A DNA stretch of 64,000 nucleotides. It comes from Brachynemurus nebulosus (lineage: Eukaryota > Arthropoda > Insecta > Neuroptera > Myrmeleontidae). A program made the translations under genes and the position numbers. Of the stretch, positions 10,839 through 64,000 are shown in pieces (the stretch's first letter is position 1; every line of letters begins with the position of its first letter). Under the pieces are notes generated by a model. The model had not been told where the DNA came from and ran no database searches. It saw only the letters and a program-made list of their open reading frames with translations. The stretch covers positions 7,670,055-7,734,054 of the forward strand of contig JAPWDM010000020.1 of assembly GCA_035578155.1 (NCBI GenBank). The letters run 5' to 3'.

Positions 10839-12396
10839 TCACTGTAGATGGCTCAGGTGGAGTAGAAGCAGATCTTGTGTTTCACATATCGCAGTCGGAT
10901 TCGTATTACTGAGGAACTTCCGTACTATACGACACGTGTTTATGATCACTGCCTTTTGCATAGTGACATATGTGTATTTTGGGAGACCCAAGAGGCTCAA
11001 ACTATTGTGTAGTGTGTGTGGAATGACCTTGGTGGCACTGAGCACTATTGGAACAATATGGACATGTTCCATTCGCCATTGTTGTTTTATTTCGGCTGCC
11101 AGGTCAGTGTATTTACCCAATTTAACTGCGTGTGTTTTTTGTAAGTTGTGTGTATTTGGAACCGCAATATCGATCAGATAGGTTGTCTTAGTTTTTTTCA
11201 TTACGAAGGTGATATCTGGTCGATTATGATTTATGGTCTTATCTGTAATAATCGACCGATCCCAGTAAAGTCTACAGGAGTCATTCTCCGCTACTACTTT
11301 TGGTGTGAGCTTGTAGTATGGTGTTTTATCGGTTATAAGGTGGTGTTTAACCGCTAGTTTCTGGCATATAATTTTGCCAACCTGGTCATGACGGTGTTTG
11401 TATTCGGACTGAGCAAGCTGAGTACAGGCAGCTGTGATATGTTGGATCGTTTCGGGTTTGGAATGGCATATCCGGCATGAGTCAGATGTTATTGACGAGT
11501 CACGAAGTATGTATTTTGAGTAACTCTTTGTATGAATTACTTGATCTTGTATAGCCAGCATGAATCCTTCAGTCTCCGGGAAAAGACTTCCTTGACTCAA
11601 CCAGGCGTGCGACGCTGCTTTGTCGACGTTACTCTGATTAAGGTCATGTGGATGTCTCCCAGGTAGAGGATTGCGTATCCATTGCTGGATTATGTCCTCC
11701 TTCGTGACCAATAGACAAAAACTATCTAGCATTTCTTTGTGTGAGAGGTTTAATGCTGTGTGTGCCTTGTCGGCTTGGATTATTCCATTGTGTAAGTGTG
11801 ATGTGTGGGTTTTGGTGTAAAAGTATTCTCGCAAGTTATGAACCTGTTTATTATGCGAGTTCCTTATGTCTATAAGACCCCGACTTCCTTCGGCTCTTGG
11901 CAGCGTTAATCGTTCTATCGCTGCTTTGGGATGATGAATTGGGTATTTGGTCATAAGGACGCGAGTCTTGATCTCGACGTTTGTCAATTCCGTAGGCGTC
12001 CATTTGATTACCCCAAATGAGTACGTTAGCACCGGAACTGCGTAGGTGTTAATTGCTTTGATGGTTTTTTTTCCATCAAGGTGGGTGTTCAGTAATCTCC
12101 GTACACGCGTTAGATATTGCTGCATCAGGTGTTGTTTTAAAGCGCTGCGATCTATACGTTCGTCCTGATTGAATCCGAGATACCGGTACGAATCTCCCTC
12201 GTCCATGGGCTGCATAACAGGCTCTGGTTCGAGTTCGAATGCGACCGCATCTCGTTTGCCTCCAGAACGACATTGTGTTCGACATTTATCGATTCCGAAC
12301 TCCATACAGAGGTCTCGCGAAACCTCGTTGGAAAGTCCCAGCAGCTGCGGTCATTGATGTTTAATAGCTGCATAGATCTTAATATCATCCATATAC
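10839..12396 (-). pseudogene. LINE C-terminal half: RT palm, thumb, CCHC finger, endonuclease
   Basis: The frame opens with the YMDD catalytic motif of reverse transcriptase at 12395-12384, meets a TGA at 12353-12351, then runs 488 residues from 12305. Counting from that methionine: YRYLGF at 40-45, an AINTYAVPVLTYSFG block at 84-98 (thumb), a CCHC finger at C277, C280, H289 and C294, then the PD-(D/E)XK nuclease with NRPDI at 361-365 and LIDIAVP at 377-383. The endonuclease nicks chromosomal DNA to prime reverse transcription from the element RNA. Nuclease residues look intact, but the upstream stop and frameshift separate them from the RT fingers. Family assignment is firm; the clade (R4/Dong versus relatives) is inference. 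Confidence 0.85.
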
Positions 12397-13423
12397 ATCC
12401 ATGTGAGATGGTATGGCGCGAATTCGTTTGCGTACCTACATTGTAACCGTATTTGGTTTCACTTAACAGGCGAGAAAGTGGATTCATTGCGAGACAAAAC
12501 CATAATGGACTCAATGAGTCGCCTTGAAATATGCCGCGTCTTACTTGAATAAGGTCGCTTTCTGTTTTTTCATTACCAATACTCAAATGTAAGGTCGTTC
12601 GCCAGTCGGACATGATCGTTCCAAGGAAGTTCACGATACTTGGGGGTATTTTGTACAGCTCCAATAGTCTCCGTAACCAGTAGTGCGGGACCGAATCAAA
12701 TGCCTTTTTGTAATCAATAAACGCTGTGTACAGGTTACGTTGTCTCCCTTTCGTTTGTTCCAGTACTACGGAGTCAGTCACAAGCTGCTCTTTACAGCCT
12801 TGTGACCTCTTTCGACATCCCTTTTGTTTTTCTGTCAGTATGGTGTTAATCTGACAATGTTCATTGATCTTTTCTGCCAGACAGGACGTCAAAATCTTAC
12901 ACACTGTAGGCAAGCAGGTGATAGGCCTATAATTCGCAGGATTTTTTGTATCACTGTTTTTAGATTTCATGTATGTGATTCCCTGCGTTAGGAACTTCGG
13001 TGTCAGGTTTGGTGTTCTTATAAATAGTGTGAATTGTTCAGCGAGGTACTTGTGTGTTGATGTAAAGTGTTTGAGCCAGTAGTTTTGTATGTTATCGATG
13101 CCAGGTGCCCTCCAGTTATGCGATCTCTGTAAAGCTCTGGAGACGTCCTCTGTAGTAATGTCCGTATAGGGCATCTTCGGAAGATGTTCGTTATTCCTGC
13201 ACTCTGTATCGATCCAGCTGGCTTTGTCATTATGTTCAATAGTGTTGGACCATATATTCGCCCAGAAACTATGGAGTATGTTCTTCTCCGGTAGAGCATT
13301 ACTGTCAGTTATCGTGTTCGTTAGAGACTGATAAAACCATCTCTCGTTTCTGCTGAACGCTTGGTTTTGTCGTCTGCGTTCAGAACTGGTCTTATATCTT
13401 CGTAAGCGCTTCGCTAGTGCTGT
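12397..13423 (-). pseudogene. LINE reverse transcriptase fingers and palm, N-terminal part
   Basis: Open from just after the TAA at 13424 down to about 12400. Landmarks: SFWANIWSNTIEHND near 13280; then, counting from the methionine at 13174, WRAPGID at 21-27, NYRPI at 81-85, the motif A block FIDYKKAFDSV at 152-162 with catalytic D154, and RRGIFQGDSLSP at 212-223. The frame is lost at about residue 258, just before YMDD, by a one-base change near 12400. Because the frame is continuous with the upstream piece except for a single TAA, the original protein was one polypeptide. Confidence 0.87.
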
Positions 13424-14138
13424 TTATTTTTGGTGAAGCGTACCTCTGATCTCTGTGAGTGTTTTATTGGGTTCCTCGTATTGTGTGTGTACTGTGTGTT
13501 TGTGTAATATTTCGTGTATATATTGTGTGTGTACTGTGTGTTTGTGTAATATTTCGTGTATATATTTGTTGAGCCGTTTGGACCTCGTACACTGTTGGTA
13601 TTGGGTGATCCTGCCGAGGTTGCATCGGATGTTGCTGATGCGTTTATTCAATCGTGTTTCCCAGGCAGGGGTTTTGTGTTCCTTCGAGTTGTGCGCTACA
13701 GGTGGTGTTACATCGGACTCGTTACAACGTATTGCTGCAACGGCTCCACAGTAGATAGCTGTGTGTAACTCGATAAAATTGTCACAAGTTTGCAAGTGTT
13801 GAGGCAGTATTATGTTATTTAATATCTCAACGATCTCAGCCAATCTACGTGAGGTGTGTTGTTTAGGCAACAAATACCGATGTGTGGGATCCGTCCCTTC
13901 GAATTCAGTAAGCGCTGTGTTAAATTCCAGTTCGATCTCTTGCAGTAGGGTGTCATTTACTGCTGTTTCATGGTAGTTAGGCTCATTATCGACAAGTTGT
14001 TGAGTGTCGTTTTGGGTGGGGCTCCCCATTTCTGGTGGGCCGTCGTCGGCCTGACTTTCTTCACATTGAGCAAATTGATGTGCGACTTGTGTTTTAATAG
14101 TGTTTATGAGGGAAAAAGGTATAAGGTTATTGGTGAAA
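13424..14138 (-). pseudogene. LINE region linking Myb-like domain to RT
   Basis: The open frame with methionine at 14029 ends at the TAA 13426-13424. The same frame stays open upstream to about 14138, where it meets the N-terminal piece after a frameshift. It holds a WETRLNKRISNIRCNLGRI block, typical of the region preceding RT in this LINE group, and a duplicated 14-residue segment YIHEILHKHTVHTQ. No catalytic role is known for this region. One nonsense change would be enough to explain the stop at 13424. Confidence 0.75.
13479..13562. repeat. 42-bp in-frame tandem duplication inside the LINE
   Basis: Two perfect head-to-tail copies of a 42-bp unit beginning TATTGTGTGTGTACTGTGTG. It repeats 14 codons and preserves the reading frame. 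Confidence 0.93.
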
Positions 14139-14660
14139 ATGACACTTTTGGTCTGTCAGTCTCTGTTCAGTAACGCGATTTAGGTGAGGATAGGTGCGCG
14201 CGAACTCTTGATGTAATTTCGTACGGTAACCAGTTTTGTCCGTTTCAAGTTTAGTGACTTGGAAGTATGTGCGTACGATGAATTCATTCAGTTCATCTGT
14301 CCATTGCATATGCGCACGCTTCTTACCAGCTTTAATGGTCCCCAAAGAGTGCTCCAAGGAAACACTTAAAGTCGGCTGAGCCAAAGGTGTTGGTGGCTCT
14401 GTAAGTAGGGCAGTAGTATTTTGGCTGAAGGTGTTATTACAGCTGACAGGTGGCTGCCTAGAACCCAGCCTGTCGTCACCGCGATCTAAACTGTCACATT
14501 CAGTGGTGACCCTGATGTGCACGGTCGCTCCACCGGCAGCGGCATTTTTCCGAGGCTTATTTTTTCTGTTCTCCATCCTAATGGGTTGTCCTTGTAGTCG
14601 CCTTTTACGACAAGCAGGACTTACTGTGGGCAAATTCTGCAAAGTGAAGCCCCCACCCAC
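14127..14660 (-). pseudogene. LINE N-terminal piece with Myb-like DNA-binding domain
   Basis: 177 residues. The first half is basic and of low complexity. The second half has MQWTDELNEFIVRTYFQVTK, then YRTKLHQEFARTYP and VTEQRLTDQK, a spaced-tryptophan/aromatic pattern like the Myb-type DNA-binding domain found at the N-terminus of R2-group LINEs. This domain presumably helps target recognition. The frame ends at 14127, while the matching continuation lies in another frame from about 14138, so a frameshift is present. The exact start is unsure; the (TTA)n tract begins only a few bases upstream. Confidence 0.72.
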
Positions 14661-18131: not shown

Positions 18132-19616
18132 TTACAATATATCAGTTATATCATAAGGTACCATATTGATTAAATACTTCCTTAATGCCCTTTTAAATTG
18201 TTGCGTGTCTTTACTTGTGATCCATTCAGATAGTTTGTTATACAGCTTCTGCCCAGTATAAACAGGTGTTTTTTCATAGAAGCTTGTCCTATGTGTAAAG
18301 TCAAAATTTGACTTCACTCTTGTATTGTACTCATATTTCTTGGTGCACGATTGATCAAAATATGAATTTTCTTTCATGTATGAAAGTAATTCATATGCAT
18401 ATGTAGCCCAAAATGTTAGGATCTTGTTGTCTTTGAATGCCGTTTTACAACTGTCTCTTGAAGGCATTGTAAATATTAGTCGAATAAATTTTTTCTGTAT
18501 TATAAATACTCTGCTAGATTCCGTACTTCTACCCCATGCTAATATGCCATATTTAATAGCTGAGTAGTAAAACATTAACAGTTGAGATTGTTCAACATAA
18601 TTATTCAATATTCGCATTTGGTAGTGCAACTGATTCAATTTTCTACACATATAATTCAGATGATCGATAAATTTCAAATTGTAATCAATATGTATTCCAA
18701 GAAATTTGGTGACTTTAGTCGCCTTTATTTGACTGCTTTTATTACTAAATATAAGATCTGTATTGGGCATAGTTCTTAATTTAAAATCTACTATATTAGT
18801 CTTGTCTAAGTTTACAATTAATTGATTTTGTGAGCACCATTCACTGAAACGCCAAATTGTAGGGTTTGCTATATTTACAGCATCGTGCATATCATCTCCT
18901 GTGATTAATATGGTGATGTCATCTGCATACATTATCAGTTTGCCAAATTCTAAATGTCCATAGGGATCATTAACAAAGCATATAAAGAGAAGTGGTCCAA
19001 GTGTACTCCCTTGAGGTACTCCTGTTTCCACCCATGTACGTTTCTCTCCATCGATCTTAACTATGATCTTTCTATCCGTTAAGTAGGACTTAATTAACTT
19101 ATAAGCATTTCCCCTTAATCCCATAGCTTCCAATTTTGTTATGAGGAAGTCATGATTTACACTGTCGAAAGCCGTGCTAAGATCAAAGAATAACCCCAGT
19201 GCATACTTGCCATCATCAGTTGCTTTTGAGAGATATTCATAAAATTCAAATATTGCACTTGTCGTAGATCTTTTCATTTTGAAGCCGTGCTGTGCTTCAT
19301 TTATCACTTTATTGTCCTCTAGAAAAGTTATTAACCGGTTAGCGATGATTTTTTCATAAATTTTCGAAAATTCAGAAAGCAAAGAGATTGGTCTGTAATT
19401 CCTTACGTTTTTTGTATTATCTTTCTTATATATTGGCTTTATTTTGGCTACTTTAAGTTGATTTGGGAAAACACTTGTTTCAAGCATCCTATTAATATGT
19501 TCGCATAGTATATTTGAAAATATATATGCATTTTGTTTTAATACTATGCCAGGAATTTCATCAATTCCTGTAGATTTCTTATTTGGTAAACTCCTAATAA
19601 TATAATAATCTTCCAC
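18132..19616 (-). CDS. LINE reverse transcriptase (CR1/Jockey-like)
   Basis: An uninterrupted 494-residue frame with a complete RT core: KKSTGIDEIPG at 13-23, NYRPISLL at 73-80, motif A FFDLSTAFDSV at 143-152, motif B GVPQGSTLGPLL at 199-210, and catalytic YADD at 230-233. The C-terminal part (SAIKYGILAWG, QKKFIRLIF) is the thumb/connection region seen in CR1-like elements. The methionine at 19616 is only the first in the open stretch; the true protein began further upstream with an endonuclease. Catalytic residues are all present, but the copy lacks a 5' end and upstream frames are shifted. CR1 versus another Jockey-group family is not settled. Confidence 0.88.
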   Translation of the reverse strand: MEDYYIIRSLPNKKSTGIDEIPGIVLKQNAYIFSNILCEHINRMLETSVFPNQLKVAKIKPIYKKDNTKNVRNYRPISLLSEFSKIYEKIIANRLITFLEDNKVINEAQHGFKMKRSTTSAIFEFYEYLSKATDDGKYALGLFFDLSTAFDSVNHDFLITKLEAMGLRGNAYKLIKSYLTDRKIIVKIDGEKRTWVETGVPQGSTLGPLLFICFVNDPYGHLEFGKLIMYADDITILITGDDMHDAVNIANPTIWRFSEWCSQNQLIVNLDKTNIVDFKLRTMPNTDLIFSNKSSQIKATKVTKFLGIHIDYNLKFIDHLNYMCRKLNQLHYQMRILNNYVEQSQLLMFYYSAIKYGILAWGRSTESSRVFIIQKKFIRLIFTMPSRDSCKTAFKDNKILTFWATYAYELLSYMKENSYFDQSCTKKYEYNTRVKSNFDFTHRTSFYEKTPVYTGQKLYNKLSEWITSKDTQQFKRALRKYLINMVPYDITDIL

Positions 19617-24405: not shown

Positions 24406-25618
24406 ATGAAGACAATTCCTGAAGACCAACATACAGTTTTTACTATAATGGAAAATACGACACTGATAACCACCACCGAATTAATTTCAACATCAACACA
24501 AGATAATTACACTTACTGTGGTCCTGGATTAATCGCATTTCGTTTAGCGTATTCCAACATGCACGGTTATTTAAGTTTGTTAGTTTGTTTATTCGGATCA
24601 GTTGCCAACACGTTAAATATTGCAATATTAACGCGTCGCGAAATGCGTTCACCAACCAATTTAATATTAACCGGTTTAGCGGTTGCCGACTTACTTGTAA
24701 TGCTGGAGTATATTCCATATGCGTGTCATATGTACTTGTCACCGGATCGTCCACGCTTGGAACGTTATTCGTACAGGTGGTCTATGTTTGTGTTATTTCA
24801 TTCAATTTTCACGCAAGTGTGCCATACGATATCAATTTGGTTGACGGTGACATTAGCCGTGTGGAGATATATAGCCGTTGCACATCCACAAAAGAATCGC
24901 GAATGGTGTCGAATGGAAACAACCGTGGCTGCGATTATAAGTGCATATATTGTGTGCCCGTTAATTTGTATTCCACTCTACATTACGTTTAGTTTATCGC
25001 CGAAAGTGGAAAGGTTTGTGAACGGTGGCTACAAATATAATAATCACACATACAATTCGACTATCGATGGTCCCACGTTTAACGCAACCATCTATTTTGT
25101 GAAGTTTAGTGATATGGCCGAACGAACTGCGTTGAAAGACCTAGATTTTTGGATTTATAGTGTAGTAATTAAAATTATACCATGTATAGCATTAACGATC
25201 CTATCTACACGACTTATCATGGCGCTAGTTGAGACGAAAAAACGACGACAGGCATTATCAATGGCCGGAGCACCGAGTGTCGCCTTGCCATTGACAAAAA
25301 TTAATCAAAACGCAGACACTTTAACATCATCCGGTAAGCAAGCAAAAGCAACCAATCTGGAACAGCAGCAGTCTTCAACATCTTCTGTGTTTCTTGCGGA
25401 AAATGGCAGTATTAATAAACTGAAAAAATCATCTATCAAAATTGCACATAAAAAAAGCTCACGTTTACTGGACAAAGAAAGGCAAACGGATCGCACAACA
25501 CGGATGTTGCTAGCCGTTTTACTTTTATTTCTAATTACAGAATTCCCGCAAGGAATTCTTGGATTGCTCAGTGTGATATTTGGAATAAAATTCTTCTTAG
25601 AATGCTACATTAATCTTG
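24406..25618 (+). CDS. Myosuppressin-type neuropeptide receptor, exon with TM1-TM6
   Basis: Class A GPCR of the insect myosuppressin/FMRFamide-like group. It would sit in the plasma membrane, bind a C-terminally amidated neuropeptide and signal through G proteins to muscle or nerve. Residues 1-53 are extracellular with N-glycosylation sites at N17 and N34. TM1 is about 54-76, TM2 86-108, TM3 126-152 followed by WRY (153-155) in place of DRY, TM4 173-195, TM5 248-272 and TM6 366-388. ICL3 (about 273-365) is long and basic. ECL2 has N-X-S/T sites at 213, 217 and 226. GLAVADLLVMLEYIPY and FLITEFPQGILGLLS match the group as recalled. The exon ends in phase 1 at 25618 before GTAAGT; TM7 and the tail must lie on a later exon that I could not find. 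Methionine 15 is an alternative start. Confidence 0.88.
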
Positions 25619-25624
25619 GTAAGT
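25619..25624 (+). other. Splice donor of the receptor exon
   Basis: TTG|GTAAGT matches the donor consensus at the point where receptor-like sequence stops (after INL plus one base). Beyond it the frame runs into a poly-T-coded KFFFFLLT tail and a stop, as expected for intron sequence. Confidence 0.82.
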
Positions 25625-27657
25625 TTTTTTTTTTTTTATTGACATAAATCTATAACTTTCATGTGAAACATTTTTATTGTCAGAAATAATTACCATTCTC
25701 ATCAACAACGCTTTCTCATTATTTTAGCATTGTATAAAATTTGTATTCGATAAGTTCCTGGTCTTTCAGAAATAAAAATTAAAAGTAAAACAATAATATT
25801 TTAAAAATTTAAACTACTGGCAGTCTTGTTTTCATAAATAATGCAAGCTTTAAATAAAACGAAAATAAAACGAAAATAAATTAGGTTTTATAGAATGGCG
25901 TGATATTACTCAAAACCTTAATACCAGACTTTTTCGTATCTTCAGATTTTCAGTCTAGATTTGTCTTATTAGTATTTCATTGTATTCAACGAGCTGAAGT
26001 AAGTGAAACTAACTCGAGAAAATACTTACGAAACTAGCCAAATTTTTCTGTGAGCTTTGCCTTTCTTTCCTTATTTTTAATTTACAGTAAATAGGTGGCA
26101 AGTGCGTAACGAGAATTAAATGGAAGTAACAAGGAACAAAAATATTTCCTGTTATATATAAGAAATGTTTACATAATACTTTTTTGAATATGATACTAGT
26201 TACTATATTACTTTTATTTATATTTCTCCTTACTTAGGTTATAAAAGATATGAACTAATTAATTAGGTAAATAAATTCAGTTAATTAATTGAAGAGGATG
26301 TCGAAATTTTATCGCCTTCCCAAAGCACTCATTAAATTTTAACAACAAAACATATACTGAGAAATAAATTTTCATTTAATAGAGAGAATACTGTTAATTT
26401 ATTTCGTTTTACGTTCTCATTTGTACTATTGCAAAACAGAGGTGAAGAAAGAAGTGTAGGATATTATGCTAGTAAGTTCTAACGAAAAAGGGACCGATAA
26501 TTTCAGACTACTGAATAACAAATGTGACTATTCATTTCCGCATGGTTTGTATAGGTATTGACGGGTGTAATTAAAAGTTGTTGATTGCTCCCGGAACTTA
26601 TACTCAATAATTTTAGTTTTATACACAAAATGTTGAGAGTTGACCTAATTTATTAAATTCCAATTGAAAATTGTTAATTAGAAGTCAGAAAAGCAATTGA
26701 CCAGTATCAGTTCGTCTTAGAATATCAGCTTAAGGTGAATCGATTACTACTGGCGAATGAATTACAAAGTCTATTTTTTTCTCTATAAATAAATATAATT
26801 TATGTGTAGAAAAATAAGTTAAATTTTATAATAAACGTACAGTATTAATATTTGATTATTATTCAATCTTCTAATTTTAATAATTTTGAAAGTAATGAAT
26901 TTGACTCTGGTAGTTGGCAAGTACGCACACATAATAACCTATACATACACAAATATTTATGGGTGTATTAGTATGAAATGCCATTTTTGTAGTTTTCTTT
27001 CTATTTATTATAATAACTAAACGTCCAATATTAAACAAAATAGTTTTTTAATGATTCAAAAACATAAAAGAAAATAATTTTCAGTTTTTTTAAATCTTAA
27101 AGTTGGTTTTCAACGACACAACTTACTTAAATATATACCTCCGATCCACCTCTGATCATACTTTTCACATTTACTCGTACGTTAAAAATTCTAACTTCGA
27201 AAATTTATTTCTTCTAAACTAGACGTCAGAAATTATTCAAATGGTGTCAGTGAATGCACCATATGTTTCTCTATAATATGCTAAAATTTCAAATTCTAGA
27301 CTTGGAAAATTTGTAATCGATTCCTCTTAATTTGTTGGTACAAGCTAACATGCAGTTGACATTAAACTAATTTTACTGTTTGAACAGGCTTGGCAGTCGT
27401 ACAGCAATCATTTATCGTACATGTATCATAATTTGAACATCTTGGGTGTACAATAATGCAACGATTTTAGGTATTAGGTAATTTTTTTTGTATTATTTAC
27501 CTTCATTTATTATAACCAGAATTTTCCGCACAATATCAATATTCACAATGTATTTCAAACTTGACTTTCTACTAATAGTAAGATGAGCTCTATTTTAAAT
27601 TCATATTAGGAAGTATGAACGTATGTACCATATGTGTGTGTATCACCACGGAACACA
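25625..27657. other. Probable receptor intron, no exon found
   Basis: About 2 kb of AT-rich DNA scanned for a TM7 exon (an N-S-x-I-N-F type block) without success. No other feature recognised. Confidence 0.5.

Positions 27658-29342: not shown

Positions 29343-29416
<74 letters not shown>
29343..29416. repeat. (TA)n, left half of an interrupted tract
   Basis: Pure TA ending exactly where the transposon inverted repeat begins. Its other half is at 33213-33269. Confidence 0.97.
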
Positions 29417-29419
<3 letters not shown>

Positions 29420-29446
29420 CGGTGGAAAGGTAAAACGTTGTAACCC
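29417..29446 (+). repeat. Left terminal inverted repeat
   Basis: Begins CGACGGTGGAAAGGTAAAAC and ends GTTGTAACCC. Confidence 0.92.
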
Positions 29447-29616
29447 TCAGAAATTTCTAAATTAGGGTTACAACATAAATGATATTGTTGTATATGTTTG
29501 GATTGACAGGTAAAATGTTGTTGCCAACAAATAATTGGAAGTTCGTTAAATTTCATATTTTTCATTGTTGTAAGCCACATGAGTTGTCGAATAAGAAAGG
29601 TAAAACGTTGTAAGTA

Positions 29617-30364
29617 TAAGGCTACGGTTACAGTGCAAGCGACTTCGCGCGAACTGGTATTCGCGCGAAGTCACAGATATTCGCGCGACTAAAACAAACA
29701 TGTACAAATGAGTGTAACTGGTTACAGTACAAGCTACTTTATAGAGCGCGAATAGCTGAAAATCGCCGTTGGTCGCTTGTAGTTCAAACAAGTTTGTTTT
29801 TTTAAGCGAATTTAAAGACACATATTTAAAATTATACATATTTATAGGTAAACATGATTCATCTTTTATGGTTCATTTGTTATTGTTATTTACACAGGTA
29901 TTTAGAAAATGGATGCTGAAAAATTAATAAAATGCTGCTAATTTTTCTGATGGCGAAATACAGTCTTTAAAATTATGTTGTTTTTTATTTCGTTTTCTAT
30001 TTCAGCTAATATCTAATTATACATGTTAACATTGTTAACATTATTTTATAAGATAGCATTCAAAAAAATTTTCAGGTAGTTGGGTTAATTCTTCAAAAAG
30101 TTGATTATGTTCACTTAAATTTTTATTTTTAAAAATACTGTCCACCCAGCATTTTCTGTTTTCTTCAAAATAAACTTGATAAGAGTACATAATTTTCCAA
30201 TAAATAATACTCGTCTAAAATATCCATTGTAAAATTGTTAAAATGTTAATAAAATTGAATTAAGCGAGAACTGTTTTTTTGCGAAAAATCGCGTATTTAG
30301 TTGCTTGTACTGTAACCACGCTATCGATAGCGCGATAGTCGCTTACACTGTAACCGTAGCCTTA
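29617..30364 (-). mobile_element. Nested PIF/Harbinger-like element
   Basis: 748 bp with inverted ends TAAGGCTACGGTTACAGTG (one mismatch over about 28 bp), flanked by TA on each side (29615-29616, 30365-30366). It splits a subterminal repeat of the host transposon. A 13-bp perfect stem GACTTCGCGCGAA lies at about 29641-29674. The minus strand carries a transposase-like fragment (30041-30227), supporting Harbinger affinity. The 3-bp TWA duplication typical of that class is not clean here. Confidence 0.82.
30041..30227 (-). pseudogene. N-terminal fragment of Harbinger/ALP1-like transposase
   Basis: Starts MDILDEYYLLENYVLL at 30227. After a one-base frameshift it reads FEENRKCWVDSIFKNK, then HNQLFEELTQLPENFFECY, and a TAA at 30043. 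The (R)-x-(F/C)WV-x-P/S-(I/L) then LF-EL then F-x-Y/C pattern is the conserved N-terminus of PIF/Harbinger and ALP1-like transposases as I recall it. The catalytic DDE part is absent. About 60 codons in all. Confidence 0.62.
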
Positions 30365-30526
30365 TACAACCTTTTACCGGGTAACAATTTGTAACAATTA
30401 CACCACCTGTTAAAAAGGCGATTGTGCAAATTATAACAAAGTTTTGTTTCTCCTGTGCCCATAATTTGTAAAATTATTTTAAATTATTAATTAGTTTCGT
30501 AAAAAATTGCCAGTTATTCATTTTTG

Positions 30527-30593
30527 ATGATGAGTTGGGGTTTTAGAGGTGCACGAATACTCGCGCTAGCAATTAATGCTCACAAAGATGAAG
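30527..30593 (+). CDS. Putative transposase, exon 1
   Basis: Begins MMSWGFRGARILALAINAHK and ends in phase 1 at GAAG|GTTAGT. Joined to exon 2 (30756) the split codon becomes GTG (V) and the frame continues without interruption. The donor and the TTTTATAG acceptor are both good matches to consensus, and the intron is 162 bp (30594-30755). The second methionine (30530) is an equally possible start. Exon assignment is inference from splice signals and frame; no transcript evidence is available. Confidence 0.75.
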
Positions 30594-30755
30594 GTTAGTA
30601 CCTAATTATCACGTATTTTTAATAACCAAAAAAATATTTTAAGACCCACTAGATTTGCTAAACCCACATTTCAATAATTAATTAATAAAATTTTTACTAT
30701 TACCTACTAGTTTTATATTTGTTGCACCTAATTTAATTTTCTTTTCCTTTTATAG

Positions 30756-32787
30756 TGCAAGCTAATGTTGATGTTAACACGGACGATCCCAACACCGTGT
30801 TTTCAAGTGCTAATATTGACATTAATGATGCTGAAATAATTCTTGTAGATGAAGGGTTTATTTGTGATCCTGACACGGCCCAGATTGTGAATATTAATGA
30901 TTTAAAAGAGTTAGCAGATGAACCTAATATTAAAGTTACTGAATGTGATCAATTATTATTGAATTCAAATGTAAATTACGAAATGGATGTAGCAAACGTT
31001 ATGGAAATACAAACTGCAGATAGTGAGCAGCTAGTAGACAGGAGCATTTCTGAAAAGGGGAAAAGGGTGATAAAACAAAATAAAGCGGTAGTACGAAAAT
31101 TGAAAAAACAAAACGGTGAAGCTTATATTAGCAAATCCAAAAAAACAATGGCTAAAAAAAAGTTACGCCCTAACCCATGCAAAGAAAATTGTCCAAACGG
31201 TTGTGGGTTAAAATTTAATGAAGAAGAAAGATTAAATATTTTCAGAAATTACTGGGCGCTTGATAATCAAGATAAGCGAACTTTTTTACTGTCTTGTATG
31301 GCTGAGACATCTAAAGCTAGAACGTACGTTAAGGGACCAAGTCGACGAGGTCGAACTTTTAAATATTATCTACCCTATGGGGATGAAAAAATTAAAGTCT
31401 GTTTACAGTTTCTTTTAAAAACTTTAGATTTGTCTCACAGAATCCTATCGTTCACTTATAAAGAAAGAACTGCATTACATACACCTAAACCAGATATGAG
31501 AGGAAAAAAGACACCGCCAAATAAAACAAAAGAAGCGGACGAATCTAAGGTTCAATCATTTATTGAGTCATTACCGGCTGTCCCTTCACATTATTGTAGA
31601 AGTGATTCCAATAAGCTATATCTTTCCATGGAGTACAAAAATAAATCAAACATTTACAGAATTTATCAAAAGGATTTTTGTTCACGGGAAGGTATTACAC
31701 CTGTTTCCGATAAAGTCTTTAGAAGAATTTTTAACCAAAAATACAACATAGGAATTCATCTTCCTAAAAAAGATAAATGTGCAACATGTGAAGGAAGTAA
31801 GGAAACTGAAACTGAATCAGAACATTTTACTTCCCACATACATGAAAAAAAATTAGCACTGTCACTATTCAAAGCACATCAAATAAGATCTAAACGTGAT
31901 CAGAAGTTTTTGTGTGTTTCTTTTGATCTTCAGAAAGTCTTAAACACTCCTCATGGTGACAATATGCTCCTCTATTACTCAAGAAAGTACGCCATGTACA
32001 ATTTCACATTATACGAAAGTGGAACACGCAATGGATTCTGCTATTTATGGGGTGAATCTGAAGGTAAAAGAGGTGCAAATGAAATATGTTCTAATGTGTA
32101 TTCTTATTTAAAGGATTTAGAGACTCGAATGCCTGAAGTGAAGATAATTTCATTTTTTTGTGACAGCTGCCCAGGACAAAATAAAAACCGGCAAATGCTG
32201 GTAATGTTACATTATTTTGTACAGGAGTCAAAAACTGTTGAAGAAATACAAATAACGTATTTATTACCGGGGCACACTTACATGCCAGCTGATTCGATGC
32301 ACTCCGTAATTGAATCAAATTACCGCAAAAAAATTGTATGGGCACCTAGCGAATGGCCTACGATTATAACAAATAGTAGAATCAATCCAAGACCCTATGA
32401 AATTATGGTTCGCACCCACAAAGATTTCCAGGACTGGAAAACCATACAGGAGAACAATAGTTTAAGTAAGGCTTGTAATATCCGCAGTGTACGACGGGCA
32501 ATTATAAAAAAAATGACCCGCAAATATTACTTTATAATACATACGATAACACTGAAGATCCTCGTTCTGTTCGTGTCCAAGGTTCACGGCGAAAGTTATC
32601 TAGTGTCATAAAAAATGTTTATCCATCACGGTTACCTATAAGCGCCGCTAAAAAGAAAGACTTAGTTGCATTGTGCAAAAAAAAAATAATTCCTTCTAGG
32701 TATCACAGCGAATACCTTCAAATACCCTCCAGTAACGCGACAGAAGACGTAATTGAAGAAGAAGAACGAATCGATTTCGATGACTAA
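30756..32787 (+). CDS. Putative transposase, exon 2 (one frameshift)
   Basis: Residues are numbered with the GTG at 30755 as 1. An acidic N-terminus is followed by a basic stretch (101-140), a C142-C146-C150 cluster, a C342-x2-C345 then H357/H361/H363 cluster, and a core with FDLQK (D391), FFCDSCPGQNKN (D470) and PGHTYMPADSMHSVIE (D513, E520). These are plausible metal-binding acidic residues of an RNase H-like nuclease. I recall many related insect proteins carrying this signature, annotated as a domain of unknown function. In the open frame a poor C-terminus follows the A8 run at 32506-32513. Shifting one base there restores a frame with PISAAKKKDLVALCKKKIIP, ending TAA at 32785-32787. The copy is therefore either frameshifted or has a homopolymer error. 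About 700 residues if intact. Confidence 0.75.
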
Positions 32788-32908
32788 TTTTTTCAATTTT
32801 TTGTGCCTATTCAACTGTGGTTTCTTATTTTTTATAATAACAAGAATAATATTAAACTAATAATAATTAATTACATATTTCATTTTTAATTTCTAAACGT
32901 TAAACTTT

Positions 32909-32914
32909 AATAAA
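32909..32914 (+). promoter_or_regulatory. Candidate polyadenylation signal
   Basis: AATAAA about 120 bases after the restored stop codon of the putative transposase and inside the transposon. Confidence 0.5.
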
Positions 32915-33182
32915 AAATTATACAACTAAGCCGATTATTATTATTGTATTCATTGTTGTATTCCACATTTACATCCTGAAGGACACCGGTAATAGGTTGT
33001 AATCCACAAATTTTACTATTTTTTTTTTTTTTTTAAGTTTTTGTAATGTTATTTATATAAACCCTTTGTATATTCAATATGTATTAAATATGAGCAAAAC
33101 CACTCAAAAATATTTAGCCAATTCCATGTAATATTACTATAACTATCGGTTTTTTTTAATTCCTGAAAAAATACAGATTTGT

Positions 33183-33209
33183 GGGTTACAACATCTTACC
33201 TTTACACCG

Positions 33210-33212
<3 letters not shown>
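33183..33212 (-). repeat. Right terminal inverted repeat
   Basis: Reverse complement begins CGACGGTGTAAAGGTAAGAT and ends GTTGTAACCC, pairing with 29417-29446. Confidence 0.92.

Positions 33213-33269
<57 letters not shown>
33213..33269. repeat. (TA)n, right half of an interrupted tract
   Basis: Starts directly after the right inverted repeat; with 29343-29416 it represents one TA tract split by the insertion. Confidence 0.96.
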
Positions 33270-59797: not shown

Positions 59798-61283
59798 TCA
59801 ACGACATAGTCAACTTTTTTATTATATTAAGCCGTGCGAAATAATTTCCCACGCTATTTCCGCATGGTATGGGCAACTGTTAATTTTTATAGTTAGCCGT
59901 GAGTAAAATGTTACTTTTAATATTAGGAGTAGAAATTTGTAAACTAAAATTAAATTAATGATAAAATAAACACTTACATAACTAGTTCGTATGTACGTAC
60001 CTATATATTCACAATTTCTCAAATTTTTGCGAAATTAATTTTAATTTTTCTAAATCACATCTTTTCGTTTAAAAACCACATCTTTTCGTTTTTTAAAAAC
60101 ACCAACAAATGACTCAAGAGTTGGCCAATTAATTAGTTGGCCACTTATAAATTTCGAAATCTTAAAACATGCAATTTGTTGAATTGCTTAGATTATTTTT
60201 CGTGAATGTTCGTCGAGAAAGATAAATTGTAAAATATGAAAAGTTTTAAAAAAGAAAACGTAAAAGATTGTTAAAGCTAAATGTAAAAGCTAAACGAAAA
60301 AAAAAGTTAAGCAATTTGACAACTTGCAATTGCTTTAATGATACATTGAAGTTAAAAGAACCGTGGTTCCTTATAATCCCATAACTCTAAAATTATTCGT
60401 ATTATACTGCTTTTAAAAAATGAGAAAATTCGTATTTTTACAAACATTTCAAAATAAATTTTACAAAAGGCGGGGAATTTTTCTTTAAACAATCGATATT
60501 TATACTTTAAAGAGAATAGTGTTATATTTCTTCAACTCTTTTTTGAATTGCCGTATAGCATTATTATATTCGGAGATATCAAAATTTAAAAGTACTGTGT
60601 TTCGTTTAATCACATACAACGAAGTAATAAGGGTAGATAATAAAGCTTCTAAATAAGGAAACTAAAAGTAAAAATATACTCTAAAAACACAGTTTATCGG
60701 AAAAATATTTCTATATTTTTGCACAACTTTGAATTAAAAGAAAAAAATTCAATATTTGTTTTTGACGACTATTCTTTAAAAAAAATATTTTCCTACAGAA
60801 ATAATTTTTTGATTCCAAAATTGAAATATAGCTGGTGAAAATGCTTTTTCCAAAATTGTTGTCTTTTTTTTTTTTAAACTGAGATATAACTTCTTAACCC
60901 CTTTAGCGGCTAATGTAAAACTAACAAAATAAAATGATCTTTGAAAATACTTAATTTAATTGTATATTTATATGGCCTACCCATTCGATAATTTTTGCTT
61001 TAGTAATGCTTTTACGATAGCAGATGACAGCATCTTACAGTTACCAACACGAGGCGAGTTCAGGGAAGGAAGAGTGGTTCAAGTTGTATAATTCATATGA
61101 CGAGCTGTGCTCAGGATAGCCGCTAAAGGCGTTAAAAAAGATAAGAATTTTCGAAATTTCTTGCGACTTTTCTTTTTAAGAGTATATTTAAAAGTAATTA
61201 CCCATACAAATTATTTTAAAATTTATTATTATTTCTGTTATGCACTGACACAACATACACATAAGTTAGTAACACTGTACATT
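59794..61283. other. No gene seen
   Basis: AT-rich up to about 61284, where composition jumps to GC-richer retrotransposon sequence. The frame from 61107 is random up to that point. Confidence 0.55.
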
Positions 61284-61815
61284 AGTGACCCACAAGGAAA
61301 AGTAATAATGGACTACGAGAGCGGATCAATACACATCGGAAAAGCAAAACGGGTCCGTGTCGCGTGGAGAATACCAAGATATGAACAGGAAACAATGGCA
61401 GTCCCCAACACCATTCTGGACGAAATACAAATTCCACAACCAACACCGAACCAGGAGAAGTTGAGGGCAGTCATACAACGGCACCCCAAGGTCTTCAACT
61501 ACAACACCGGGAGAACAAGGACCATCACTCACAAAATAGACTTGAGTGACAACACTCCCATTAAACTACGACCCTACACCTATAGTCAAGAGAAGCAAAC
61601 AACACTGAACAAACTACTGGGAGACATGGAAGAAGAAGGGGTCATCGAGCCATCAACCTCCCCATGGGCAGTACCTGTAGTCCTCACTAGGAAAAAGGAC
61701 GCATTATATCGTTTATGTGTGGACTACAGAAGATTAAACGAGCGCACAAAGAGCAGCGCCTTCCTCATCCCCAATCTACAAGATATGCTCCGAAAGATCA
61801 ACGGGGCCACGTGTT
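61284..61815 (+). pseudogene. Ty3/gypsy pol: spacer and start of reverse transcriptase
   Basis: From about DPQGKVIMDYES onwards the frame is retroelement-like: FNYNTGRTRTITHKIDLSD, IKLRPYTYS, MEEEGVIEPSTSPWAVPVVL, then LYRLCVDYRRLNERT and PNLQDMLRKING. These are the fingers and first palm motifs. The frame is lost at about 61806 in GGGGCCACGTG, where the continuation shifts. The 170 bases of open frame before 61284 are host AT-rich DNA, not protein. Confidence 0.9.
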
Positions 61816-62338
61816 TTCTACATTGGACTTGCAATCCGGTTACTGGCAGATTGAAATGGATCCCGCGTCCAAAAAGTACACCGCCTTCATCACCTCTCGT
61901 GGACTCTATCAGTTTCGAGTAATGCACCTCGAGTTAGTGCTGGAACGACTGGAACAACATGACCTCACCTGTAAGTCCAGTAAATGTACAATAGCCAGCC
62001 CAAGAGTTCGTTACCTTGGACACATATTCAGTAGCGACGGCATCGACAGGGGGGAAGAAAAGAACGAAGCCATCGACAAATACGAGGTCCCGAAAACGAA
62101 AAGACAATTGCGACAGTTCCTGGGGCTATGTGGTTGGTATAGGAGCTTCGTCCTGCACTATGAGGAAATCACAACGCCTTTGACAAACACTCTCAAGAAG
62201 AAGGAAAAATGGCGCTGGCTGGCGATCCACCAAAAACCTTTTGAAGGACTAAAGACAGCGATCATTACCGCTCCAAAATTGGCACATCCGGATTTCGCCA
62301 GAGAGTTATGCCTCAATAATATTGGATTGGGAGCAGTT
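61816..62338 (+). pseudogene. Ty3/gypsy RT, second part, catalytic site deleted
   Basis: HVFSTLDLQSGYWQIEMDPA (with the motif A aspartate) leads to SRGLYQFRVM near 61920 and then jumps directly to LELVLERLEQHDLTC. The segment that should hold the FGL and Y-x-DD motifs, roughly 60 residues, is missing, so the polymerase cannot work. After it come KCTIASPRVRYLGHIFSSDG and QLRQFLGLCGWYRSFV, the thumb and connection region. The frame breaks again near 62330 within LCLNNIGLGAV, where several residues of the RNase H start are also lost. Confidence 0.9.
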
Positions 62339-62780
62339 TCAATGGAACGACGACGGCAGTTCACGAAGAATCATCCAGAACGTCAGCAAGAAACTCAGCC
62401 CCACCGAACAGAAGTACTCCGTTAGTGAGAGGGAATGCCTCGCAGTAATTTGGCCACTGAGGAAGTTTTGGGGATGCCTCGTAGGACGGGACTTCAAGCT
62501 GTATAATAACCACTCCGCTCTTCATTGGTTGAATAGGTCCAAAGACGCTAGAGGGAAGTTAGCACGATGGACCATTAAACCGGGAGCATACCATTTTGAA
62601 TATACAGCACGAACCAGGGAGTACAAATTAAGCAGCCGACGCGCTCTCCCGGATCCTAACCGATCCAACGAGTTGGGAAGAAGACGAGCCAGGTGTTCTA
62701 GAATGGTCAGCCCCACAACCCAGTACCGAAGCCCCAATTGCGATCAACCTGGCGCAGGTCCCGACAGTAACCATTGAGGA
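62339..62780 (+). pseudogene. Ty3/gypsy RNase H region
   Basis: KKLSPTEQKYSVSERECLAV and WPLRKFWGCLVGRDFKLYNN, then HSALHWLNRSKDARGKLARW, are the RNase H-like domain typical after RT. The aspartate expected before HSALHWL appears as N, suggesting loss of a catalytic residue. After about 62640 the frame no longer matches the family and another break is likely. Confidence 0.85.
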
Positions 62781-63215
62781 CATCAGGAGTTGGCAGGACC
62801 AGGATCCAGATATTTCCGCCATTGGAAACCACCTACTGGAGAACAGTCCGGTCAGGAGAGGCTTGCAACGACGACTATTGCGAACCAAAAATAATTACAC
62901 AGTAGCTCGTAGCCTGCCCTGGTACCACTCGATCCTGAAAGGACTCGCCTTCCTCCACGAATATCAGGACACATCCCGGCTGGAAAAAAAACATACCGGC
63001 AAATTCGAGCTCGCGTCGACGGGTCCGGTATCAAAGATGACATTCGCCGCTATGTACTATCATGCGACAGCTGTCGCAGAGGGAAAGCACAGAATCATCC
63101 ACCAGCACTAAGTATCCGCAACTGCAGGCATACGACCCGATGGGGGATGCTCAGCGTCGACATCATGGGGCCATACCGCCGCACGGCACATATTTACCAA
63201 ATGGATCGAAGCCTT
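62781..63215 (+). pseudogene. Ty3/gypsy linker, H2C2 zinc finger and integrase start
   Basis: The frame around 63000-63110 reads YRQIRARVDGSGIKDDIRRY, then VLSCDSCRRGKAQNHPPA, the cysteine pair of the integrase H2C2 finger; its histidine half (HEYQDTSRLEK) is in a shifted frame just upstream. GMLSVDIMGPY near 63146-63178 is the first catalytic aspartate region of integrase. About 30 bases are missing after it, where the sequence passes to TKWIEAFPMG. Confidence 0.83.
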
Positions 63216-63640
63216 TCCAATGGGAGCCACTACCGCCACAAAAATAGCCAAGGTTCTGGAGGAAGAGATATTCAGCCGTTTCGGATATCCTCGAATCCTA
63301 CTGACCGACAACGGGCCCCAGTTCCGATCCAGAGAGTGGGTCGAAGCCACCAACCGATGGAAGACCGAACATTGGACTACTCCAATTTACCATCCCCGGG
63401 CCAATCCAGTGGAGCGACGGAACCAAGAGCTGAAAAAACGTCTCCGCCTTCACCTATTAGGCGACGAGCACCAACATTGGGACCAACAAGTCGCCAAATC
63501 TCTTTTCGCTCTGCGAAACCGATGGAACCGAGCAACAAGGTTCCGTCAGCACCGACCCAACTGCTATTGGGAGCAAAGACGAGGAAGTCGGGTGACTGGC
63601 AGCTCACACAAGAAAACCAAGATGTCCTACCCCTAGACGA
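63216..63640 (+). pseudogene. Ty3/gypsy integrase catalytic core
   Basis: ATKIAKVLEEEIFSRFGYPR, ILLTDNGPQFRSREW (second catalytic aspartate in TDNGPQF) and YHPRANPVERRNQELKKRL (catalytic glutamate in the expected place) are clear. The core after the first aspartate is the best-preserved part of the element. It would have joined element DNA to the host chromosome. The frame drifts after LFALRNRWNRATR. Confidence 0.88.
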
Positions 63641-64000
63641 GTGGAACCGACAACAGGAAGAGGCACGCCAGACCGCCATGCAACAAGCCGATCAAACGCT
63701 CCAAACGCAAGGCGACAGGAACGACGAAGCAGAGGGCCCGCCACAGTACCACCCAGGTCATTCCGTAAGAGTGCGCAATCCCGTTCTGAGTAGCAAAGCC
63801 GAGGGGTACACGCACGACTAGCACCGAGGTGGAAGGGATCCTGCAGGATACGGCAGGTGTTCCCGACCGGCGTCTATATACTGGACACAGAGCCCGCTAC
63901 CAAGGTTCACAGAAGTTTTCTTAAACCATCCAACAGGAGGATCAACGAAGAAGGCGATGAGTTCGAGCTCGGGGAGCTGCCCGCGCCACCAAGGGAAGAT
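63641..64000 (+). pseudogene. Ty3/gypsy integrase C-terminal region, cut by window end
   Basis: VRVRNPVLSSKAEGYTHD meets a TAG stop at about 63819-63821. Just beyond, in another frame, LAPRWKGSCRIRQVFPTGVY and ILDTEPATKVHRSFLKPS form the usual C-terminal DNA-binding fold, followed by an acidic tail running past the window end. Confidence 0.83.

Follow-up and report, generated by a model that had tools for sequence, protein, structure and literature searches.

The element at positions 29417–33212 of the window (the whole 64,000-nucleotide stretch of the Brachynemurus nebulosus genome analysed here) is best read as a damaged DNA transposon of the cut-and-paste kind, most likely a Sola2 element, whose transposase is a protein carrying the domain DUF7869 (PF25273). 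We put the probability of this reading at roughly 0.8. That the DUF7869 protein is the transposase of its element, as the initial annotation of this DNA had proposed, is well supported, because the ends of the element travel with the gene, insertions are flanked by 4-bp duplications, the protein has a predicted RNase H-like fold and the aspartates Asp391, Asp470 and Asp513 (D391, D470 and D513) are invariant.

The inverted ends of the window element pair at 27 of 30 bp and a (TA)n tract adjoins both of them. When the outer 200 bp on each side were shuffled by base, none of 20 shuffles matched the 27/30 pairing, and 20/30 was reached by four of the 20. The end motif has four matches in the window where 0.04 would be expected (up to three mismatches allowed); two of these are the ends themselves, from which the pattern was taken, and two are internal. 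Both the inverted ends abutting the TA tract and the internal motif copies had been noted from the sequence at the outset and are borne out here. Only one sizeable gene lies between the ends.

A search of the 960-Mb host genome revealed two further full-length copies, L009 and L010; of the other loci found, L011 is an older copy that is interrupted and L012 a fragment. Over the right-hand piece, identity to the window copy is 99.3% for L009 and 99.05% for L010 when substitutions are counted, or 98.2% and 98.0% with gaps included. L009 is flanked by AATAATAT and ATATAAAA, giving an exact and unambiguous 4-bp duplication, ATAT, and L010 by ACATTT and ATTTTATT, giving ATTT, again exact and unambiguous. 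Searching with both ends, the check that had been suggested for the element, found seven places in the genome with no more than three mismatches, namely both ends of each of the three full-length copies and, for L011, the right end alone, as compared with none for the reversed control pattern. Within this limit, ends of the window type occur only with the DUF7869 gene. Short copies carrying the ends alone, which had also been anticipated, were not found among the close genome matches of the window family. The L010 copy is itself enclosed by another pair of inverted repeats (27/30, starting TATATATATAC, at positions of about 808 and 4854) and may have inserted into another element.

The domain is not restricted to this family. 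At least 150 places in the genome match PF25273 (all 150 candidates scored, from 334), and none of 14 control genomes gave a match in the same search. In a second family, 12 loci are 99.7–100% identical over approximately 2.6 kb with abrupt divergence beyond. The ends of this family, GAATCGCTTATTTRTGAAACAT, have 28 exact matches in the genome, which form 14 pairs about 2.6 kb apart (control, 0), and all 14 pairs, for example L039 and L046, enclose a DUF7869 match, that of the C79 copy having an internal stop codon. An exact 4-bp duplication is seen in 14 of 14, of which 13 fit AWWT and the remaining one is ACAT, with four of the 14 in TA runs; the borders here were set by comparison of the copies and by the ends, independently of the duplication. 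The near identity of these copies implies recent movement and makes the second family, with 14 complete pairs of which 12 were compared, a strong candidate for present-day activity.

Further ends and duplications were found for the families L021/L023/L024 (ATTT, AATT and AATT) and L025/L028/L029 (AATT in all three), and for L027 (ATAC). L022, representing a third additional family, is a 1.8-kb DUF7869 element (positions 617–2408 of that locus) with perfect 30/30 inverted ends, AATT flanks and a protein from a distant branch. The families differ in their ends (CGACGG, GAATCG, GAATGC, GAGGCG and GAAGGG). In all, 4-bp duplications are present at 25 DUF7869 insertions with defined ends, the window copy included, and 23 of them are of the form AWWT.

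DUF7869 is the sole significant Pfam match of the window protein. A search of protein sequences gave 232 matches at E ≤ 0.001, with PF25273 in all 120 listed. Among the matches listed, the species, where named, are insects and the proteins are called uncharacterized, hypothetical or unnamed, one ankyrin-repeat label excepted. This is in keeping with the earlier statement that related insect proteins are common and carry a domain of unknown function. No match was found for the 618-residue frame amongst the PDB sequences at E values up to 1, and tblastn gave no relatives in viral contigs (9 pattern matches) or in prokaryote genome contigs (106 pattern matches). A literature search with the letters GQNKN returned unrelated papers only.

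Structure comparison of the models showed that the predicted core resembles those of the mariner/SETMAR transposase and the retroviral integrases, as expected from the RNase H-like core originally suggested. D391, D470 and D513 are positioned on strand 1, strand 4 and at the start of a later helix of the model, respectively, and are invariant in two alignments (69/69 and 61/61). The initial annotation had left the third acidic residue as either D513 or Glu520 (E520). The position of E520 is occupied by aspartate or lysine in six of 69 sequences, and two distant families from this genome, as read by eye, have lysine there. Given this variation, the invariant D513 is the better third residue, and the catalytic triad would appear to be DDD. 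A fourth acidic residue, E434 (window 32054–32056, in a W-x-E motif), is also invariant (69/69 and 61/61) and stands beside the triad. The Cys/His clusters, previously annotated as zinc clusters at residues 142–150 and 342–363, are conserved in the 69-sequence alignment and probably bind zinc.

It would seem likely that transposition follows a cut-and-paste route. The DUF7869 protein would bind AGGTAARAYGTTGTAA, a motif that lies immediately within both ends and recurs in the internal repeats, and metal ions held by D391, D470 and D513 would cut at CGACGG. The freed ends would then be joined, with a stagger of 4 bp, at an AWWT site, and subsequent repair would leave the 4-bp duplication.

Sola2 was reportedly placed within the Sola superfamily by Bao et al. 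in 2009, and its proteins are presumably similar in sequence to the DUF7869 protein. Kolobok and piggyBac elements have 4-bp TTAA targets, and like the DUF7869 elements they have a 4-bp duplication and terminal inverted repeats (TIRs); however, TTAA is found in none of the 25 DUF7869 duplications and the window protein has no Pfam match to their domains. The mariner core, though similar in predicted fold, shares only 8–10% identity (Mos1 and SETMAR), and the DUF7869 elements differ from Tc1/mariner in possessing the Cys/His clusters, in their termini and in duplicating 4 bp, e.g. ATTT or AATT, where mariner duplicates the 2-bp TA (in the passages cited from PMC10741241). The retroviral integrase core is 8% identical, whereas the DUF7869 element reads DDD, has TIRs and lacks retroviral genes. 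The published descriptions of Sola2 give a closer fit. Passages of PMC3627910 describe AT-rich 4-bp duplications of the form AWWT, such as ATAT, AAAT and ATTT, and name an 888-residue Sola2 protein from Dictyostelium fasciculatum. According to part of PMC10741241, Sola elements have DDD transposases, duplicate 4 bp of target and carry TIRs of 11 bp or longer, and an excerpt of PMC3985635 groups Sola with RNase H-like proteins. The DUF7869 elements share with Sola2 the 4-bp AWWT duplication, short TIRs (27/30 here, as against at least 11 bp), the DDD triad, a size in the kilobase range and an occurrence in insects. As the triad and the duplications match, Sola2 is the best filing for the element, and the label "unclassified" given to it initially is probably wrong. 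We have here a new family of what is probably a known kind, and it links DUF7869 to transposition.

We think it unlikely, if still worth weighing, that the DUF7869 transposases instead constitute a superfamily of their own, apart from Sola1, Sola2 and Sola3, with its own AWWT 4-bp target and DDD core, and large and recently active in insects. Such a superfamily would accord with the diversity of the ends, with the unknown-function label that Pfam still gives to DUF7869 and with our finding no publication under that name or the accession PF25273. Nor does "Sola" appear in the names of relatives, whether among the 120 matches listed for the window protein, among the 120 listed of 185 for a distant-family query or among the 120 listed of 210 for a profile of more distant proteins, names in these last two sets being truncated and given for a minority. 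However, the published traits of Sola2 and Sola are AWWT duplications and a DDD triad like the one apparent here, and Sola2 has been reported from insects, as miniature inverted-repeat transposable elements (MITEs) in iMITEdb (in part of PMC5199201) and in Xya riparia (in part of PMC11245825).

It is improbable that the DUF7869 protein is a passenger, with another transposase moving the element in trans. Sola2 elements do carry passenger proteins such as Fanzor1 (a passage of PMC3627910), but the DUF7869 gene is the only sizeable one between the ends, families whose ends are unrelated carry it too, its product is predicted to have a DDE-type fold and shows an invariant acidic triad, and no paired ends were found without it within the mismatch limits searched. 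The idea that the inverted ends are a chance structure round a TA microsatellite and the gene an ordinary host gene, prompted by the position of the window copy in (TA)n, which makes its duplication length unreadable, was rejected as very improbable in view of the recurrence of the same ends at unrelated sites, each time with an exact duplication, of the link between ends and gene, and of the shuffle test.

Several points weigh against the reading of the element as a Sola2 transposon moved by its DUF7869 protein. The comparison with Sola2 was by published descriptions of target and triad and not by protein sequence. The Foldseek matches were all weak, the best being a herpesvirus terminase nuclease with an E value of about 4–5e-4 and TM-scores of 0.2–0.37, as were those from comparison with the viral library, and the active-site residues were placed only by secondary structure. 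Two of the 25 duplications depart from AWWT (ACAT and ATAC), and five (the window copy, L040, L048, C74 at 36.98 Mb and C79) are within TA runs, making their length ambiguous. For L022, L025, L027, L028 and L029 equal 4-bp flanks were a criterion of the search, and for L025 the best-ranked candidate was a reading shifted by 4 bp, with ATAT. The scan of 19 loci for ends, in which equal 4-bp flanks were required and low-complexity candidates dropped, left 11 of the 19 without accepted ends: nine had no candidate (L020, L021, L031–L036 and L049), L026 had only TTTT flanks, which were not accepted, and for L024 the sole candidate was an internal offset. Comparison of copies did supply ends for L021 and L024. 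Finally, six single matches to the second-family ends, with one or two mismatches, are unpaired and were left unexamined; one of the six, at C65:1881626, has a weak DUF7869 match about 0.9 kb away.

The features of the window copy are collected in the table below. This copy is damaged, with a frame shift near 32.5 kb and a nested 0.74-kb repeat. Of the two-exon gene annotated initially, the upstream exon and the long exon 2 were both found, separated by an intron with a standard donor and acceptor as inferred from the sequence; the gene is, however, not intact. Exon 2 is an uninterrupted frame of 684 codons in L010 and is split between two frames in L009. Lacking a single open frame in exon 2, the window copy would depend on an intact copy for any movement; exon 2 is uninterrupted in one copy of the same genome, L010.

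Contrary to the initial annotation, the gene is also not alone in the element, since the nested repeat lies inside it. L009 and L010 show the site empty of this repeat, which is an insertion foreign to the original element. Of the 93 genome matches to the window element the majority cover the nested repeat only. It is flanked by TAA/TTA, has dozens of matching pieces across the genome and looks like a MITE with a 3-bp target.

Table. Features of the DUF7869 element and its gene, in window coordinates.
Feature	Position	Strand	Basis and remarks
Left target-site duplication copy (ATAT)	29413..29416	.	Within TA tract; ambiguous in a (TA)n target
Left terminal inverted repeat (CGACGG...)	29417..29446	+	27/30 to right end; present in three full-length copies
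Internal end-motif copy	29505..29523	+	Motif scan; pattern match placed at 29506
Internal end-motif copy	29595..29613	+	Motif scan; pattern match placed at 29596
Nested repeat with its own inverted ends (GGCTACGGTTACAG...)	29620..30361 (~742 bp)	.	Not in L009 or L010
Inverted internal end-motif copy adjoining nested repeat	30364..30379	-	L009 scan, position 203, 3 mismatches; window coordinates read off sequence
Exon 1 (22 codons + 1 base), ATG at 30527, donor GTTAGT	30527..30593	+	Borders inferred from sequence; kept in older copy L011
Exon 2, transposase gene	30756..32787	+	Frame shift near 32.5 kb in window copy
RNase H-like catalytic core (predicted), residues 354-547, with D391, D470, D513	31814..32395	+	Models, structure matches, conservation
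DUF7869 (PF25273) match, residues 424-567	32024..32455	+	E 1.8e-13, 51 bits against a curated cut-off of 26
Right terminal inverted repeat	33183..33212	-	27/30 to left end; present in full-length copies
Right target-site duplication copy (ATAT)	33213..33216	.	Read off window sequence, compared with other copies

Elsewhere in the window, an open frame at 24406–25647, which precedes the transposon by about 4 kb, resembles by eye a peptide-type G-protein-coupled receptor, and open frames at 10839–14660, 18132–19616 and 61107–63821 resemble, again by eye, reverse transcriptases of the type without long terminal repeats (non-LTR) and fragments of Gypsy-type pol.

Proteins whose only annotation is DUF7869 occur commonly in insect databases, where they can easily be mistaken for host genes. 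The evidence here indicates that at least the DUF7869 proteins of this genome are transposases, and several DUF7869 families now have ends, a target rule and a probable active site. The second family, with its 14 complete copies, makes activity directly testable. If these elements are Sola2, a database label gains a function; if they are not, a new superfamily is in view.
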